From: Granulicella paludicola
Lineage (GTDB): Bacteria; Acidobacteriota; Terriglobia; Terriglobales; Acidobacteriaceae
NCBI RefSeq assembly: GCF_025685545.1
Contig: NZ_JAGSYC010000020.1
Coordinates: forward strand, 124,001 to 188,000
Reading direction: 5' to 3'
DNA: 64,000 nt
The notes below the pieces were generated by a model. The model ran no database searches and was not told the DNA's origin. It was given only the letters and a program-made list of their open reading frames with translations. A program made the position numbers and the translations under genes. Positions within the stretch are counted from its first letter, which is position 1. Every line of letters begins with the position of its first letter. Shown in pieces: positions 1,132 to 50,951 of the stretch.

Positions 1132-1160
1132 TTGACGCGCAACTCCGCAGGTCCTACGCT
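1132..1160 (+). promoter_or_regulatory. Promoter of the DUF177-rpmF-plsX cluster, probably leaderless
   Basis: TTGACG at 1132-1137, a 17-nt spacer and TACGCT at 1155-1160 make a good sigma-70-type promoter. The -10 element ends 6 nt before the ATG at 1167, so transcription would begin at or next to the start codon. There is no Shine-Dalgarno sequence. Confidence 0.6.
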
Positions 1161-1166
1161 GAACGT

Positions 1167-1718
1167 ATGCTCATCACACCTTCGCAACTCGTCGACGAGC
1201 CACTCAAACTGGACGAAGTCATCGAACCAGGCACAATCGACTACGCTCCAGACATCGAACAGGTCGGGCCGCTCAAGGTCAAGGGAGAAGCCGATATTCT
1301 CCTCGAAAACCGCGGCCCGAAGAACATTGTTGAGGACATTCGCCTCCGCGCTCATGTCAAAGGCCACTTCACGCAGCAGTGTGCTCGCTGCATCGAACCT
1401 GTCCCTCAGAACGTAAATCTCGACTTCGACCTCATTTTTCGCCCCGGCGGCGCAGATGATGAGCCCGGAGAGCGAGCAATTTCGGAAGATGAGACAGAAA
1501 TCGGTTATTATGGTTCAAGCGGTTTGTCGCTGGAAGACGCCGTTCGTGAGCAGGTAGTTTTAACTCTGCCCGGACGCACACTCTGTCAGCCTGACTGCAA
1601 GGGTCTTTGTCCGCACTGCGGCATCAATCGCAACCTCGCTACCTGCGAGTGCGCGGAGAAGCAGACTGATCCCCGGCTCGCTTTACTCGCTGGGCTCAAG
1701 GTCGGCACGAAAGCCTGA
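1167..1718 (+). CDS. DUF177 (YceD-like) protein, ribosome/23S RNA-associated accessory factor
   Basis: A 183-residue DUF177 protein. The N-terminal half is a beta-rich domain ending in the CARC motif (QQCARCIEPV, about residues 70-79). The C-terminal part carries the second zinc-knuckle-like cluster, CQPDCKGLCPHCGIN, followed by CEC. DUF177/YceD is almost always directly upstream of rpmF, as here (74-nt gap), and the family is linked to 23S rRNA levels and ribosome assembly; the exact biochemistry is not settled. I start at ATG 1167 (MLITPSQLVDEP), which lies just downstream of a promoter-like pair; the longer upstream frame adds a sequence unlike the family. Confidence 0.9.
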   Translation: MLITPSQLVDEPLKLDEVIEPGTIDYAPDIEQVGPLKVKGEADILLENRGPKNIVEDIRLRAHVKGHFTQQCARCIEPVPQNVNLDFDLIFRPGGADDEPGERAISEDETEIGYYGSSGLSLEDAVREQVVLTLPGRTLCQPDCKGLCPHCGINRNLATCECAEKQTDPRLALLAGLKVGTKA

Positions 1719-3942: not shown

Positions 3943-3948
3943 TATGCT
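3943..3948 (+). promoter_or_regulatory. -10-like hexamer of folD, probable leaderless start
   Basis: TATGCT ends exactly 6 nt before the folD ATG at 3955. No Shine-Dalgarno sequence lies between them and no clear -35 was found. The same spacing recurs at seven other genes in this window. Confidence 0.4.
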
Positions 3949-7065: not shown

Positions 7066-7653
7066 TCACGCAAAGAGGCGGATGGCGGCGATGCCTGCGG
7101 CTCCGGCGGCTAGGCAGGCGGGAGTGTTTTCGTGGGTGATGCCACCGAGGGCTAGGACGGGGATGTCTCCAGCGGCGTGGACGGCGGCGGCGAGGGCTTT
7201 TAAGCCAATGCCAGGCTGGACGAGTTCGCCGGAGACGCGCTTTTCGAAGATGGGGCCGAAGAGGATGAGGTCGGGGGCGAGGGTGCGGGCTCGGGCGATG
7301 TCGGCGAGGCTGTGGCAGGAGAGGGAGATGCAGGGAGTAGGGAACAGGGAGTAGGGAGCAGCGGCGTAGAGGTGGCGGATTTCTGTGGGGGTGAGTTCGT
7401 CGGGGGCAGAGGTGAGGTGGACGCCGTGGGCGGGGGTGGCGAGGGCGATGTCGGCGCGGGAGTTGATGAGGAGGCGGGTGGGGGCGGTGGGAATTTCGGC
7501 GATGTCATGGAGAATGCATCGTGCGAGATCGAGGACCGCTCCTGCGGACAGGGACTTTGCGCGGAGTTGAATGTAGTCGACGCCGTCAGCGGCAAGACGA
7601 CCTGCGTCTCCTATGAGGTATGAACCGTCGACGATGGCGTAGCGGAGCATCAA
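7066..7653 (-). CDS. thiE: Thiamine phosphate synthase (ThiE/TenI family)
   Basis: A 195-residue TIM-barrel protein. Conserved stretches are DGVDYIQLRAKSL (the V.YIQ.R.K motif), LLINSRADIA, HGVHLTS, LSCHS, LILFGPIFE and VLALGGI. ThiE joins HMP-PP and thiazole phosphate to thiamine phosphate; the closely related TenI lacks this activity, and no other thi gene is nearby to decide. Within the gene, 7332-7361 is a GGGAGTAGGGAACAGG-type minisatellite that adds roughly ten residues (APYSLFPTPC) before the LSCHS motif. A TTG at 7653 lies 6 nt from a TACACT hexamer, while an ATG follows at 7650. Confidence 0.8.
   Translation of the reverse strand: MMLRYAIVDGSYLIGDAGRLAADGVDYIQLRAKSLSAGAVLDLARCILHDIAEIPTAPTRLLINSRADIALATPAHGVHLTSAPDELTPTEIRHLYAAAPYSLFPTPCISLSCHSLADIARARTLAPDLILFGPIFEKRVSGELVQPGIGLKALAAAVHAAGDIPVLALGGITHENTPACLAAGAAGIAAIRLFA
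7332..7361. repeat. GGGARYAGG minisatellite inside thiE
   Basis: Imperfect tandem units of the form GGGAGTA / GGGAACA / GGGAGTA / GGGAGCA. Similar tracts follow the stop codons of sthA (9591-9617) and purA (20484-20520). Here the tract is in frame within thiE. Confidence 0.6.
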
Positions 7654-7659
7654 GATCAG

Positions 7660-7665
7660 AGTGTA
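7660..7665 (-). promoter_or_regulatory. -10-like hexamer of thiE
   Basis: On the minus strand TACACT ends 6 nt before the TTG at 7653 and 9 nt before the ATG at 7650. No Shine-Dalgarno sequence is present. Confidence 0.3.
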
Positions 7666-10850: not shown

Positions 10851-10880
10851 TACCGTGCAATGGTACATTGAGTTTCAATG
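10850..10880 (+). promoter_or_regulatory. Candidate HigA operator overlapping the higB start
   Basis: Two inverted repeats lie side by side: GTACC/GGTAC (10850-10854, 10862-10866) and the perfect CATTGA-gtt-TCAATG (10866-10880). The second includes the ATG of higB, which fits autorepression by the HigA antitoxin. Confidence 0.5.
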
Positions 10881-11168
10881 ATCGAGAGCTGGCGCGACGC
10901 GTGGCTGAGAGAGTTCTTCGTCAACGACACGTTTTCGAAGAAGCTACCCTCAGAGTTGCGCGATAGAGTCTTTCGAAATTTACAGATGATCGATGACGCT
11001 GGGAGCGACGCCGACCTGCGTACTCCGCCCAGTAATCATTTTGAGAAGCTGAGCGGCTCGCTCGAAGGATTTTGTTCCGTCCGTGTGAATGAGCGTTGGC
11101 GATTGATCTTCCAGTGGGATGGCGGCGACGCGCGAGAGCTATACCTCGATGACCATTCTTTTCGCTAG
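10878..11168 (+). CDS. higB: HigB-type mRNA interferase toxin
   Basis: A 96-residue RelE-superfamily toxin of the 'plasmid maintenance killer' type. The pattern DTFSKKLPSELRDRVFRNLQMIDDA, then TPPSNHFEKLSGSLEGFCSVRVNERWRLIFQW and YLDDHSF is typical of HigB, in which Arg and His residues at the end cleave mRNA on the ribosome. The toxin gene comes first and is followed after 11 nt by a HigA antitoxin gene, the usual higBA order. An inverted repeat covers its start codon. Confidence 0.92.
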   Translation: MIESWRDAWLREFFVNDTFSKKLPSELRDRVFRNLQMIDDAGSDADLRTPPSNHFEKLSGSLEGFCSVRVNERWRLIFQWDGGDARELYLDDHSFR

Positions 11169-13391: not shown

Positions 13392-14204
13392 TTAGTGCTG
13401 GCAGGTGGGGCAGTAGATGGTGGTGCGGCCGCCGACGATGATCTTTTTGAGGGGGGCCTGGCAGTCGTGGCAGAGTTCGCCAGCGCGGCTGTAGACCTTG
13501 TGCTCGAGCTGGAAAAAGCCGCGGATGCCGTCGGCGTCGACGTAGTCGGAGACGGAGGACCCGCCTAGCTTGATGGCGTGGGCGAGGACCTTCTGCAGGG
13601 CTGCGTGGAGGCGGTGGAGTTCGGCGCGGGTGAGGCGGCCTGCCTGGCGGCGGGGGCGGATGCCAGCGCGGAAGAGGCTCTCGTCGGCGTAGATGTTGCC
13701 GACGCCATGGAGGATGGACTGGTTGAGCAGTGCGGCCTTGATGGCGAGCTTGCGGCCTTTGAAGAGGTCGGCGAAAGCGTCGGGGGAGATGGTGGTGGGC
13801 TCGGCGCCGGGGCCGAGGTAAGGCTCGTGCGCGATGGAGAGGCGACCGAAGCGGCGAGGGTCGACGAAGCGGAGCTCGCGACCGTCGGCTAAGGAGAGGA
13901 TAAGGTGCGTATGCAGCGGGACGGGGACTTCGGACTGCGAGACGAGCAGGCGACCGGTCATGCCGAGGTGGATGAGGAGCTGTGCGGGGACAGTATGGTT
14001 TGGGCGGCCGATGTCGGCGACGATGGTTTTGCCGACACGGCGGACGCGGAGGATTTCGCCGTGGGTGAGGGTTTCGGCGAGCTCGGACTCAGGGGACTTG
14101 AAGGTCTGGGGCTTGCCGCTGGTCCAGACGCGGAGGATGCGCTGGCCGCGGATACGGGCGTCGACTCCGTTGGCGACGGTTTCTACTTCGGGGAGCTCGG
14201 GCAC
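13392..14204 (-). CDS. mutM: Formamidopyrimidine-DNA glycosylase
   Basis: A 270-residue Fpg/MutM that removes 8-oxoguanine and formamidopyrimidines. It starts with PELPEVETVANGV, in which the N-terminal Pro is the Schiff-base nucleophile and the following Glu is catalytic. Other motifs are HLGMTGRL, FVDPRRFGR, NQSILHGVGNIYADE and the C-terminal zinc finger CHDC...YCPTCQ. The start codon is GTG (14204), 6 nt after a TATCCT hexamer and without Shine-Dalgarno. Length is normal for the family. Confidence 0.97.
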   Translation of the reverse strand: MPELPEVETVANGVDARIRGQRILRVWTSGKPQTFKSPESELAETLTHGEILRVRRVGKTIVADIGRPNHTVPAQLLIHLGMTGRLLVSQSEVPVPLHTHLILSLADGRELRFVDPRRFGRLSIAHEPYLGPGAEPTTISPDAFADLFKGRKLAIKAALLNQSILHGVGNIYADESLFRAGIRPRRQAGRLTRAELHRLHAALQKVLAHAIKLGGSSVSDYVDADGIRGFFQLEHKVYSRAGELCHDCQAPLKKIIVGGRTTIYCPTCQH

Positions 14205-14210
14205 GGGTTA

Positions 14211-14216
14211 AGGATA
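14211..14216 (-). promoter_or_regulatory. -10-like hexamer of mutM, probable leaderless start
   Basis: On the minus strand TATCCT is followed by TAACCC and then the GTG start, a 6-nt gap. No -35 match was found at 17 nt. Confidence 0.4.
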
Positions 14217-18176: not shown

Positions 18177-18182
18177 TAGGAT
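18177..18182 (+). promoter_or_regulatory. -10-like hexamer of the DinB gene, probable leaderless start
   Basis: TAGGAT ends 6 nt before the ATG at 18189. A TTGGCG 18 nt upstream is a weak -35. Confidence 0.35.
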
Positions 18183-23159: not shown

Positions 23160-24578
23160 CTAGGCTTTGCCGATGACGAGGAGCTGTTCGATCTTGCCGT
23201 CGGGTTCCAGGTAGACGGTGACGAGCACGGAGGTACCGCCGGAGAACGTCACTTTGTAGAGCCCGAAGGTCATGCCGCCTCGGAGGGAGGAGCTGAGCGG
23301 CGCAACGCTGGTGATGGTGCCGAGGGGGCCGAGGGTGGACTGGAAGTCGGCGAGGGTTTCTTTGTTGAAGTAGTCGTTGGTGTCGTCGGTGAAGAGGGAG
23401 CGGTCGATCTGGCTGGTCTGCAGGCCGGTGAGGATGGGCTGGAGTTTGGGAGCGAACGTGGCAACGACACCGGCGGCGGGTGAGGGTTTGGCGGGCGGCG
23501 GCTCGGGCAGGATCAGAGGCTCGATGGCAGCGGCGATCTCACTGGCGGCTTCGCTGGCGATCTCGTTGGTGAGCACGACGACGGCTGCGTGGTCGTTGGG
23601 ATAGACGACGTTTTCTGCGACATAGCCGCCGACTTCGCCGCTGTGCTCGAAGACGAGGCGGCCGTTCTTCTGGCGGATGAAGATGCCGAGGCCGTAGTGT
23701 GCGTCCTTGCCGTTCTTGAGGGTGAAGCTGGTTTCGAACTCCTTGTAGCTTTCGGGCGTGAGCAGGGTGCGGTCGATGATGCCGAGGTCCCAGGTGAGCA
23801 GGCCGGAGGCGGGCATGGCGAGTTCTCCGTCGCCGAAGTACCAGCCGTCGCCTTCGAGCGGCAGCACGCGGGGCGCGGCCATGGCGTTGGACATGTAGCC
23901 ATCGACCTGGAGGCGTTTGCGATCGGTGTAGGCGTTGAAGACGGTCTCCATCCGCAGAGGGGCGAGGACGCGTTCCTGGATGAACTTGTAGAGGGGTTCT
24001 CCGGAGACCTTCTGCACAATGAGGCCGAGCAGCACGTAGTTGGTGTTGGAGTACTGCCAGTCGGTGCCGGGGTCGAAGTCGAGCGGCTTGGTGGCCCACT
24101 GGCGGACGTTGGCGAGCGGGTCAACGGATTTGCGCCATGCGGGAACCTGATAGTCCTGCGGGGCGAAGTCTTCGTAGCCGCTGGTCATGGTCATGAGGTT
24201 GCGGAGAGAGACCTCGTTCGAACGGGTGAGTTCGGGGAAGTACTTGGCGACCTTGTCGTCAAGGGAGAGCTTGCCGTCCTGCTGCAGAATGAGCGCGGCG
24301 GTGGCGGTGAACTGCTTGGAGATGGAGCCGATGGGGTACTCCATCGCGGCCTCGGAGGCTTTGGGCGGCGAGACGATGGCGAGGCCAAAGGCTTTGGTGT
24401 AGACGATGGCGCCGTCTTTGACGATGCCGACGGAGGCAGAGGGTACGCCGGTTTCGGCGAGGACTTTTTTCGCGATGGCATCGACTTTGGCTTCGGTCGC
24501 GGGATCGAGCGAGGGAGCCTGCTGGGCTTGGGCGACGAGGGAAGCGGCGAGGAGCGCTGCTGCGATAGGGAGACGCAT
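23160..24578 (-). CDS. Secreted serine hydrolase, beta-lactamase/class C PBP family
   Basis: A 472-residue protein with a signal peptide (MRLPIAAALLAASLVAQAQ). The class C-type motifs are GSISKQFT (nucleophile Ser and Lys of SXXK, near residue 80), YSNTNY (the YXN Tyr) and EHSGEVGGY (in place of KTG). The last 110 residues form an extra domain after a Pro-rich linker (LPEPPPAKPSPA). Members include esterases, D-aminopeptidases and PBP-like hydrolases; few are true beta-lactamases. No good Shine-Dalgarno precedes the ATG at 24578, and an in-frame extension upstream exists, but the signal peptide supports this start. Confidence 0.88.
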   Translation of the reverse strand: MRLPIAAALLAASLVAQAQQAPSLDPATEAKVDAIAKKVLAETGVPSASVGIVKDGAIVYTKAFGLAIVSPPKASEAAMEYPIGSISKQFTATAALILQQDGKLSLDDKVAKYFPELTRSNEVSLRNLMTMTSGYEDFAPQDYQVPAWRKSVDPLANVRQWATKPLDFDPGTDWQYSNTNYVLLGLIVQKVSGEPLYKFIQERVLAPLRMETVFNAYTDRKRLQVDGYMSNAMAAPRVLPLEGDGWYFGDGELAMPASGLLTWDLGIIDRTLLTPESYKEFETSFTLKNGKDAHYGLGIFIRQKNGRLVFEHSGEVGGYVAENVVYPNDHAAVVVLTNEIASEAASEIAAAIEPLILPEPPPAKPSPAAGVVATFAPKLQPILTGLQTSQIDRSLFTDDTNDYFNKETLADFQSTLGPLGTITSVAPLSSSLRGGMTFGLYKVTFSGGTSVLVTVYLEPDGKIEQLLVIGKA

Positions 24579-28543: not shown

Positions 28544-28549
28544 TATACT
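28544..28549 (+). promoter_or_regulatory. -10-like hexamer of the HIT gene, probable leaderless start
   Basis: TATACT ends 6 nt before the ATG at 28556; the intervening GCGAGG could double as a weak ribosome site. Confidence 0.4.
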
Positions 28550-28555
28550 GCGAGG

Positions 28556-29164
28556 ATGAGCGCGGACGAGAGGTCGGGTGGGGAGCGTCTCTGGACGCCA
28601 TGGCGTTATGCCTATGTGACGGGGGACCGAGGTGGTCGCGAGGGGGTGCCGGAGTCTCTGGCGGCCTGGCCGGGAGACCATCACTGCGTGTTTTGCAATG
28701 TGATTGCCGCGGCCGATTATGCGATCGCGCACGGTATGTCTCCGGACGAGGCGGAAAAAGCGGTGTGGATCCTGGAGCGCGGACAGTATGGATTTCTGAT
28801 GCTGAATGCTTTCCCGTACAACAGCGGCCATCTCATGGCTGTTCCCTATGCGCACCAGAGTTCGCTGGCGGCTTTGCCGCTGGAGGTCGCTGAGGAGCTG
28901 ATGCGTATGGCGCGGCGGGCGGAGCGGGCGTTGCGTAGCGTGTATAAACCGCATGGGCTCAACCTGGGGATGAACCTGGGGGCGCCGGCGGGAGCTGGGA
29001 TTGCGGAACACCTTCACCTTCATGCGGTGCCGCGCTGGACGGGCGATAACAACTTTATGGCTGTTCTGGCCGAAACGCGGGTACTTCCCGAACTGCTGGA
29101 CGATTCCTGGAACAGGATTCGCAAGGCGCTTAATGAGAATTCTTTCGAAAGAAGCATCTTCTAG
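28556..29164 (+). CDS. HIT-family nucleotide hydrolase/transferase (Ap4A phosphorylase-like)
   Basis: A 202-residue HIT protein. The HIT signature is EHLHLHAVPRW (His-x-His-x-His, near residue 155). The LWTPWRYAYV start and a CVFC zinc pair near residue 44 are characteristic of the Ap4A phosphorylase/HIT branch, as is NAFPYNSGHLMAVPYAH. These enzymes split dinucleoside polyphosphates or AMP derivatives. An upstream frame to 28490 lacks a start signal. The gene begins 360 nt from divergent rpsA. Confidence 0.9.
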   Translation: MSADERSGGERLWTPWRYAYVTGDRGGREGVPESLAAWPGDHHCVFCNVIAAADYAIAHGMSPDEAEKAVWILERGQYGFLMLNAFPYNSGHLMAVPYAHQSSLAALPLEVAEELMRMARRAERALRSVYKPHGLNLGMNLGAPAGAGIAEHLHLHAVPRWTGDNNFMAVLAETRVLPELLDDSWNRIRKALNENSFERSIF

Positions 29165-37636: not shown

Positions 37637-37642
37637 TATCCT
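37637..37642 (+). promoter_or_regulatory. -10-like hexamer of the MogA-like gene, probable leaderless start
   Basis: TATCCT ends 6 nt before the ATG at 37649, just downstream of the previous terminator, so a new promoter is needed here. No clear -35 or Shine-Dalgarno. Confidence 0.45.
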
Positions 37643-45196: not shown

Positions 45197-46432
45197 ATGG
45201 AGACTTTGACAACCCTTTCCGATGCGTCGACATCGAAGCGCCCTCAGCTGGCACACCTGACCGCTCAACTGGATGAGTTGCGCGCAAAGGGCACGTACTT
45301 CAAACTGCGCGTGCTGGATGACGAGCAGGGGCCCGTGTGCCACTACGACGGCCGCGAGGTCATCAACCTTGCGAGCAATAACTATCTCGGGTTGTGCGAT
45401 CACCCGAAACTGCGTGAGGCAGCGATTGCAGCGACGAAAAGGTACGGCGTGGGTTCAGGTGCGGTGCGGACGATTGCTGGCACGATGCGCATCCATATGG
45501 AGCTGGAAGAGAAGATCGCCGCGTTCAAGGGTGTTGAGGCGTGCGTTGTCTTTCAGTCAGGATTTACGGCGAATGCGGGCACGGTGTCGAGCATTCTGGG
45601 CAAGCAGGATTTCATCCTGTCGGATGAGTTGAATCATGCCAGCATCATCGACGGCGCTCGGCTATCGGGAGCGAAGATTAAGGTCTTCCGTCATAAAGAT
45701 GTTGCTCACGCGGAAGAACTGTTGCAGGAGATTCAGCACGAGCCGGGTCGCAAGCTCGTGATAACTGATGGCGTCTTCAGCATGGATGGCGATATTGGTC
45801 CGGTGGCGGAGCTGTGCGATCTATGCGACAAGTATGGCGCGATCATGATGGTCGATGATGCGCATGCTTCAGGCGTGCTGGGTCGTAACGGGCGCGGGTC
45901 TGTCGATCACTTCGGTTGCACACAGCGCGTAGACGTACAGGTGGGAACGCTTTCAAAAGCAATCGGTGCGCTGGGTGGTTATGTCTGCGGCTCGCGTGAT
46001 CTGATTGACTACTTGTACCACCGCGCGCGACCGTTTCTTTTCTCTACGTCTCATCCCCCGAGTGTTGCGGCCAGCTGCATGGCGGCTTTCGATATTCTTG
46101 AAAACGAACCTGAGCGTATCGAGCGGCTGTGGTCGAACACGAAGTATTTTCAGCAGCAACTTGCGGAGGTGGGTTTCGACATCGGTGGCAAGAGCACACC
46201 GAAGAGCGAGACGCCGATCACGCCTGTGATCGTGGGCGATGGGCGCAAGACGATGGATTTTAGCCGCGCGCTCTTTGAGCAGGGACTGATGGCGACAGGG
46301 ATTGCGTTCCCCACGGTGCCGGAAGGCAAGGCACGTGTGCGCTGCATCATGACGAGCGAGCATACGAAGGAGCAGATCGATAAGGCTCTTGAGATACTGA
46401 CTGCAACTGCGAAGCGGATGGAGATTCTCTAG
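45197..46432 (+). CDS. kbl: Glycine C-acetyltransferase (2-amino-3-ketobutyrate CoA ligase)
   Basis: A 411-residue PLP enzyme of the alpha-oxoamine synthase family that splits 2-amino-3-ketobutyrate with CoA into glycine and acetyl-CoA. Markers are INLASNNYLGL, GVGSGAVRTIAGT, FILSDELNHASIIDG, MMVDDAHASGVLGRNGRGS and the PLP-lysine motif QVGTLSKAIGALGGYV. Partnership with Tdh, 1.1 kb upstream, identifies it as Kbl rather than BioF. The N-terminus is about 15 residues longer than in E. coli. A TAAGAT stands 9 nt before the ATG. Confidence 0.92.
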   Translation: METLTTLSDASTSKRPQLAHLTAQLDELRAKGTYFKLRVLDDEQGPVCHYDGREVINLASNNYLGLCDHPKLREAAIAATKRYGVGSGAVRTIAGTMRIHMELEEKIAAFKGVEACVVFQSGFTANAGTVSSILGKQDFILSDELNHASIIDGARLSGAKIKVFRHKDVAHAEELLQEIQHEPGRKLVITDGVFSMDGDIGPVAELCDLCDKYGAIMMVDDAHASGVLGRNGRGSVDHFGCTQRVDVQVGTLSKAIGALGGYVCGSRDLIDYLYHRARPFLFSTSHPPSVAASCMAAFDILENEPERIERLWSNTKYFQQQLAEVGFDIGGKSTPKSETPITPVIVGDGRKTMDFSRALFEQGLMATGIAFPTVPEGKARVRCIMTSEHTKEQIDKALEILTATAKRMEIL

Positions 46433-50945: not shown

Positions 50946-50951
50946 ATTATA
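50946..50951 (-). promoter_or_regulatory. -10 element of rel, probable leaderless start
   Basis: A perfect TATAAT on the minus strand (50946-50951) ends 5 nt before the rel ATG at 50940. There is no Shine-Dalgarno and no clear -35. Confidence 0.5.

Follow-up and report, generated by a model that had tools for sequence, protein, structure and literature searches.

A -10-like hexamer just ahead of start codons points to leaderless genes in Granulicella paludicola

Results

Candidate -10 hexamers in the 64-kb window

The window, meaning the whole stretch of 64,000 nucleotides analyzed here, hosts eight genes preceded at short distance by a hexamer of the form TANNNT that resembles a bacterial -10 element. 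The gap, given throughout as the number of nucleotides between hexamer and start codon, had been described as 6 nt in seven cases, with start codons at 1167, 3955, 18189, 28556, and 37649 on the forward strand and at 14204 and 7653 on the reverse strand, and as 5 nt for rel (50940, reverse strand). Inspection of the sequence reproduced all eight hexamers at these positions and gaps, together with the TTGACG at 1132-1137 that a 17-nt spacer separates from the TACGCT of yceD (DUF177). The gene names given in the preliminary description likewise agreed with the Pfam families found (YceD/DUF177, FolD, MutM, DinB-like, HIT, MoCF, TMP-TENI, and RelA/SpoT). The features are as follows.

1132..1137, forward strand: -35-like TTGACG of yceD, 17 nt 5' of the candidate yceD -10 box
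1155..1160, forward strand: candidate yceD -10 box TACGCT, 6 nt ahead of ATG 1167
1167..1718, forward strand: yceD/DUF177, predicted leaderless (Pfam PF02620, E 1.8e-30)
3943..3948, forward strand: candidate folD -10 box TATGCT, 6 nt ahead of ATG 3955
7660..7665, reverse strand: candidate thiE -10 box TACACT, gap 9 to the probable ATG 7650, gap 6 to TTG 7653
14211..14216, reverse strand: candidate mutM -10 box TATCCT, 6 nt ahead of GTG 14204
18177..18182, forward strand: candidate -10 box TAGGAT of the DinB-like gene, 6 nt ahead of ATG 18189
28544..28549, forward strand: candidate -10 box TATACT of the HIT-family gene, 6 nt ahead of ATG 28556
37637..37642, forward strand: candidate -10 box TATCCT of the mog-like gene, 6 nt ahead of ATG 37649
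50946..50951, reverse strand: candidate rel -10 box TATAAT, 5 nt ahead of ATG 50940

An excess over chance had been claimed on an estimate of about two matches among some 60 genes. The claim holds, with 0.83 matches expected at gaps 5 and 6 among the 49 genes called wholly inside the window (the mog-like gene was missed by the caller). The resulting P values of 3e-5 for seven and 3e-6 for eight matches (gaps 5 and 6 combined) are post hoc for the window. TANNNT also precedes other window genes, namely 23160-24578 (reverse strand, TACCCT, gap 7) and 45197-46432 (forward strand, TAAGAT, gap 9), as well as a weak open reading frame of 96 codons at 10878-11168 (forward strand, TACATT, gap 8). Known RNA families gave no match in the window at gathering thresholds, and a comparison of one window gene with a plasmid collection returned 16 records, the best at 61% coverage and 66.5% identity, which was uninformative.

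A position-specific excess across the genome

The count was extended to several stretches adding up to 1.24 Mb, or 25% of the genome. Genes were called by codon statistics and their starts picked on coding score and codon type, ignoring the upstream sequence; all start codons are those of our own caller rather than of a curated annotation. TANNNT occupied gap 6 in 56 of 954 genes, versus a background of 8.1 per position (mean of gaps 12-49). A count against shuffled upstream sequence had been proposed in the preliminary description, and on this quarter of the genome the excess stands: 200 dinucleotide shuffles gave a mean of 8.1 and a maximum of 18 at gap 6. At gaps 7, 8, and 9 the hexamer was found in 33, 19, and 25 of the 954 genes, respectively, and gap 5 was not enriched (seven genes). 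Among 64 patterns of the type XYnnnZ, TAnnnT produced the strongest peak at gaps 4-8. Exclusion of the window, providing an independent test, left 51 of 904 genes with the hexamer at gap 6 versus 7.6 expected (P = 4e-25). When the caller was run again with its training threshold slightly altered, it yielded 961 genes, of which 138 had TANNNT at gaps 6-9 versus 33 expected, an excess of 10.9% of genes.

Several controls addressed the nature of this peak. Internal in-frame ATGs (n = 6378) lack it. Hexamers beginning with TAY peak as strongly as those beginning with TAR (28 of 953 genes each, with 4.5 expected for TAY), the peak is present among divergent genes (25/364 versus about 4), and only two of the 56 gap-6 hexamers could contain the stop codon of an upstream gene. 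Counted over the whole genome without gene calls, TANNNT-N6-ATG occurs 650 times and the reversed pattern 621 times; this raw count is uninformative because internal ATGs dilute the signal, and a gene-aware count is needed. A bias of hexamer genes toward the first position in operons is present but slight, with 9 of 133 starting less than 25 nt behind a same-strand gene versus 104 of 820 others (p = 0.06).

The description of the genes as mostly housekeeping does not extend to the gap-6 genes outside the window. One stretch contains 48 of these 51 genes, and 47 of their proteins were scanned, one short one being omitted. A Pfam family was assigned to 41 of the 47 (E 1e-8 or better), spanning repair, metabolism, peptidases, transport, regulators, and others, and with such mixed roles a specifically housekeeping set was rejected. 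Ribosomal-protein or translation-factor families were not among the 47, a count taken without a background or Shine-Dalgarno (SD)-led set for comparison.

The hexamer avoids genes with a Shine-Dalgarno sequence

An SD core, defined in the window as GGAG, GAGG, or AGGA at gaps 4-12, precedes 333 of the 954 sampled genes, and classical SD sequences are thus also in use in this genome. The TANNNT signal avoids these genes: only two of the 138 genes with the hexamer at gaps 6-9 have an SD core, versus 48 expected. The preliminary description had noted that the eight genes lack a good SD whereas most other genes have one. Its first part stands in that a TA-like signal replaces the SD, with the qualification that dinB does carry AGGA, albeit within the hexamer itself. 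The second part is not supported by the four-base criterion, as only 17 of the 49 called window genes, dinB included, have an SD core.

The excess at gaps 6-9 recurs in a congener (31 of 313 genes versus 10 expected; excess 6.7%) and in another genus of the family (29 of 339 versus 14; excess 4.6%). It is absent from Escherichia coli K-12, a small control with 6 of 183 genes versus 14 expected (-4.3%).

Anatomy of the candidate promoters

From the 953 genes with enough upstream sequence, 133 cases were aligned on the hexamer. Its middle is non-random: position 4 is A in 73 of the 133, and position 5 is A or C in 117, T being rare there. G is mildly in excess two bases 5' of the hexamer (58/133). 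A -35 consensus was not detected, at least four of six matches to TTGACA at 16-18 nt occurring in 13 of 133 cases versus 11.4 after shuffling. As a set, the cases lack the canonical sigma-70 -35 element at this distance, and yceD alone among the genes examined has TTGACG.

The base preceding the start codon is a pyrimidine in 43 of the 56 gap-6 genes versus 438 of 814 others (p = 8e-4). Such a preference would suit a YR initiation site if the first base (A or G) of the start codon is also the first of the transcript. No significant enrichment of -1 pyrimidines was found at gaps 7-9. Among the 25 gap-9 genes, a potential alternative start immediately ahead of the called codon is present in only 3. 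With gap 9 also no rarer than gap 8, some cases do not fit a transcript that begins precisely at the start codon, and a part of the genes possibly has short leaders or a looser initiation point.

Recurrence of the spacing before orthologous starts

Sixty relatives were searched for the eight proteins, and upstream DNA was compared for at most 30 loci per gene. Any in-frame start codon, CTG included, from 20 codons upstream to 15 codons downstream was admitted as candidate start, equally for all gaps. Of 232 orthologues, 50 were dropped for identity below 50% or want of a candidate start, most heavily affecting thiE (23 of 29) and dinB (16 of 29). Of the remaining 182, 88 have TANNNT at gap 6 and 20 at gap 7, against 0-11 for each of the other gaps from 0 to 44. 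The accompanying analysis of column conservation used only loci with a start codon in the expected position.

On gene level, with any candidate start allowed, gaps 6 and 7 account for 20 and 4 of 29 folD orthologues and for 20 and 2 of 29 mog-like ones. For dinB, 13 orthologues were retained at 50% identity or more, 8 of them with gap 6 and 4 with gap 7. The dinB hexamers read TAGGAT, TAAGAT, TAGAAT, TAAAAT, or TACACT; the middle bases vary while TA...T mostly persists, which argues for a -10 element rather than an SD-type AGGA. Hexamer columns stand out in the alignments of dinB and of the HIT gene; among 26 HIT orthologues, 17 have gap 6 and 3 have gap 7. In mutM, whose start is independently fixed by the conserved N-terminus MPELPE, conservation is partial: gaps 6, 7, and 8 occur in 7, 5, and 2 of 28 orthologues, and about half keep the arrangement. 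Start-anchored hexamer columns do not stand out in mutM, and in thiE only partly, because the gap varies.

Two genes bear on start-codon assignment. For thiE, a TTG start at 7653 had been assumed; both the caller and most orthologues favor the ATG one codon later, and thiE probably starts at ATG 7650 with a gap of 9. The HIT gene starts upstream of the usual start of the genus by 8 codons in two genomes and by about 13 in one. These three genomes, that of the window, G007, and G015, form a supported clade, each with TANNNT at gap 6. The HIT protein encoded in the window (28556-29164) is 8 residues longer at its N-terminus than in most of the genus, and the candidate -10 box of its gene precedes the new start.

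Conservation and loss of the arrangement at yceD

Among 24 orthologues of yceD, 15 carry the hexamer at gap 6. Against a drifting background, conservation is visible at TTGAC, at TA...T, and close to the start, columns -12, -11, and -7 being identical in 19, 19, and 20 of 27 loci at a mean column value of 0.53. Allowing gaps 5-9, 22 of 30 loci carry TANNNT, and by eye TTGAC is also found in 21 of these 22. A set of named loci, sharing many organisms with the first 30, gave 22 of 30 for TANNNT and 20 of 22 for TTGAC. In total 33 named loci matched YceD, including Granulicella, Edaphobacter, Bryocella elongata, and Paracidobacterium acidisoli, and the closest among them belongs to an Acidobacteriaceae metagenome-assembled genome (76% identity). 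Records titled Verrucomicrobia or Rhodanobacteraceae (L319, L322, L324) contain a yceD 60-63% identical and are perhaps mislabelled metagenome bins.

Conservation is incomplete, and the yceD arrangement is gone from six congeners (G006, G009, G024, G018, G027, and G017; loci L079-L083 and L085), in which TTGAC and TANNNT are missing; G017 was scored as a loss despite TAGGCT at gap 8, and G005, whose alignment begins at residue 13, was left unscored. Inspection by eye revealed a TGAGAAAAT box farther upstream in five of the six and GGAGG ahead of the start in three (G006, G009, and G024). This suggests that yceD may have switched to SD-led translation in these congeners. A quick tree built from FolD, Rel, and YceD requires three changes to account for the six losses, at least two of them forced by well-supported branches.

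A fixed gap of five at rel

The arrangement at rel is nearly invariant. Of 30 loci, counting that of the window, 28 have the hexamer (TATAAT in 26, TAGAAT in 2) separated from an in-frame ATG by exactly 5 nt. This spacing holds although the start may lie as far as 219 nt upstream or 93 nt downstream of where extrapolation from the window protein would place it. The 30 loci stem mostly from congeners and are not independent. Given that gap 5 is not enriched genome-wide, the arrangement is specific to this gene. In the window, rel sits 33 nt behind a same-strand gene, which would place the rel promoter within a gene pair. The gene itself was found in 26 of 27 more distant genomes. Across the relatives (L151-L180), the extrapolated N-termini of Rel vary in length, the difference reaching about 100 codons.

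Discussion

Leaderless genes of this kind have precedents. As set out in their treatment of TA-led genes, Zheng et al. 2011 (PMC3160421) take TANNNT about 12 bp upstream as the signal of a leaderless gene and predict such genes in three of three Acidobacteria, at 13.3% of genes (9.7-19.4). The class is therefore already predicted for this phylum, and the phenomenon is not new. The hexamers reported here resemble these TA-led genes in motif, in distance (rel lies at 11 and the corrected thiE at 15), and in exceeding dinucleotide shuffles. They also show a TA-like instead of an SD signal, two of 138 having an SD core, and the published share of 13.3% is near our excess of 10.9%. Beyond the published account of TA-led genes, orthologues were compared here, adding the recurrence of the spacing, the losses in congeners, a start that has shifted together with its -10 box, and the gap of five at rel.

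In Mycobacterium tuberculosis, Cortes et al. 2013 (PMC3898074) report, in their sections on promoters and leaderless transcripts, a TANNNT -10 element without conserved -35, a large measured share of leaderless transcripts, a purine start usually adjoining a pyrimidine at -1, and a leaderless set described as free of ribosomal proteins and dominated by toxin-antitoxin genes. Our set shares the TANNNT form of the hexamer and the missing -35 consensus, with yceD and its TTGAC as exception, and contains no ribosomal-protein family among the 47 gap-6 proteins, albeit counted without a background set. It differs in that leaderless transcripts were measured there and are predicted here, and in belonging to another phylum. 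The leaderless group of GeneMarkS-2, for which the StartLink paper's account (PMC9581028) names M. tuberculosis and Actinobacteria, is likewise comparable, as a promoter signal at the start codon occurs alongside SD genes within one genome; the word stem Acidobacter is absent from that paper's main text. A limited literature search found no transcription start-site maps of Acidobacteria; for Granulicella sp. WH15, transcriptome and proteome data exist.

The excess at fixed positions, the avoidance of SD genes, and the recurrence before orthologous starts are direct results of the computation. The observation is right, and its leaderless interpretation very probably is as well. From established knowledge, we infer a sigma-70-type identity of the -10 boxes, a 5' end at the start codon, and leaderless translation. 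With high confidence, we regard the hexamers as housekeeping-type -10 elements of genes whose translation is leaderless. They would act as sigma-70/SigA-like elements, RNA polymerase would initiate at the start codon or within about 3 nt of it, the mRNA would consequently have no SD leader, and the ribosome would recognize the 5'-terminal AUG or GUG directly. Roughly one tenth of the genes in this Acidobacteriaceae genome appear to be organized in this way.

Alternatively, the boxes might be real but transcription often start 1-5 nt upstream of the start codon, leaving ultra-short leaders. The enrichment of gaps 7-9 and their lack of a pyrimidine excess at -1 speak for this possibility; the sharpest peak is nevertheless at gap 6, precisely where -1 pyrimidines are enriched, and we consider this explanation possible but rather unlikely. 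It is improbable, too, that the promoters are real while most protein derives from longer leadered or read-through transcripts with leaderless translation playing a minor part. Some genes, including rel, do lie close behind same-strand genes; yet these genes lack an SD, and their spacing to the start codon recurs among orthologues.

An AT-rich non-SD ribosome-binding element has been proposed for Bacteroidetes, and the hexamer could similarly be an element within a leader instead of a promoter. Avoidance of SD genes and the absence of a -35 consensus would fit this explanation, which we judge very improbable in view of T1, A2, and T6 being held in register with A and C favored in the middle, of TTGAC at promoter spacing in most hexamer-bearing yceD orthologues, and of the classical SD being used in the same genome. 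An artefact of chance, wrong starts, or upstream stop codons (TAA/TAG) is hardly credible, for although one of the eight starts (thiE) is probably wrong and the raw count barely exceeds that of the reversed pattern, the shuffle, internal-ATG, TAY (incapable of being stops), divergent-gene, and E. coli controls led us to reject all three explanations.

With the leaderless reading as the favored one, the near-invariant rel promoter is the remaining surprise, and we did not find it described in a limited literature search. Within titles and abstract openings, this search found no leaderless rel, and relA and Rv2583c do not occur in Cortes et al. 2013 (PMC3898074). As a speculation that we hold to be doubtful, the family's rel, encoding a (p)ppGpp synthetase/hydrolase, might be built for leaderless synthesis, or for a (p)ppGpp-sensitive start, when 30S initiation is restrained. 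If true, the way in which translation is initiated would be tied to the stringent response. The fixed arrangement offers a concrete lead on this relation.

With these results, a soil acidobacterium joins the bacteria that mix SD-led and, as predicted here, leaderless genes. Start-codon annotation, exemplified by thiE and the HIT gene, as well as proteomics and expression work would be affected in an abundant and poorly studied phylum. Since yceD is predicted to be leaderless in most of the congeners examined and not so in six, three of them with GGAGG, the genus may be considered as a natural series for the switching of initiation modes.
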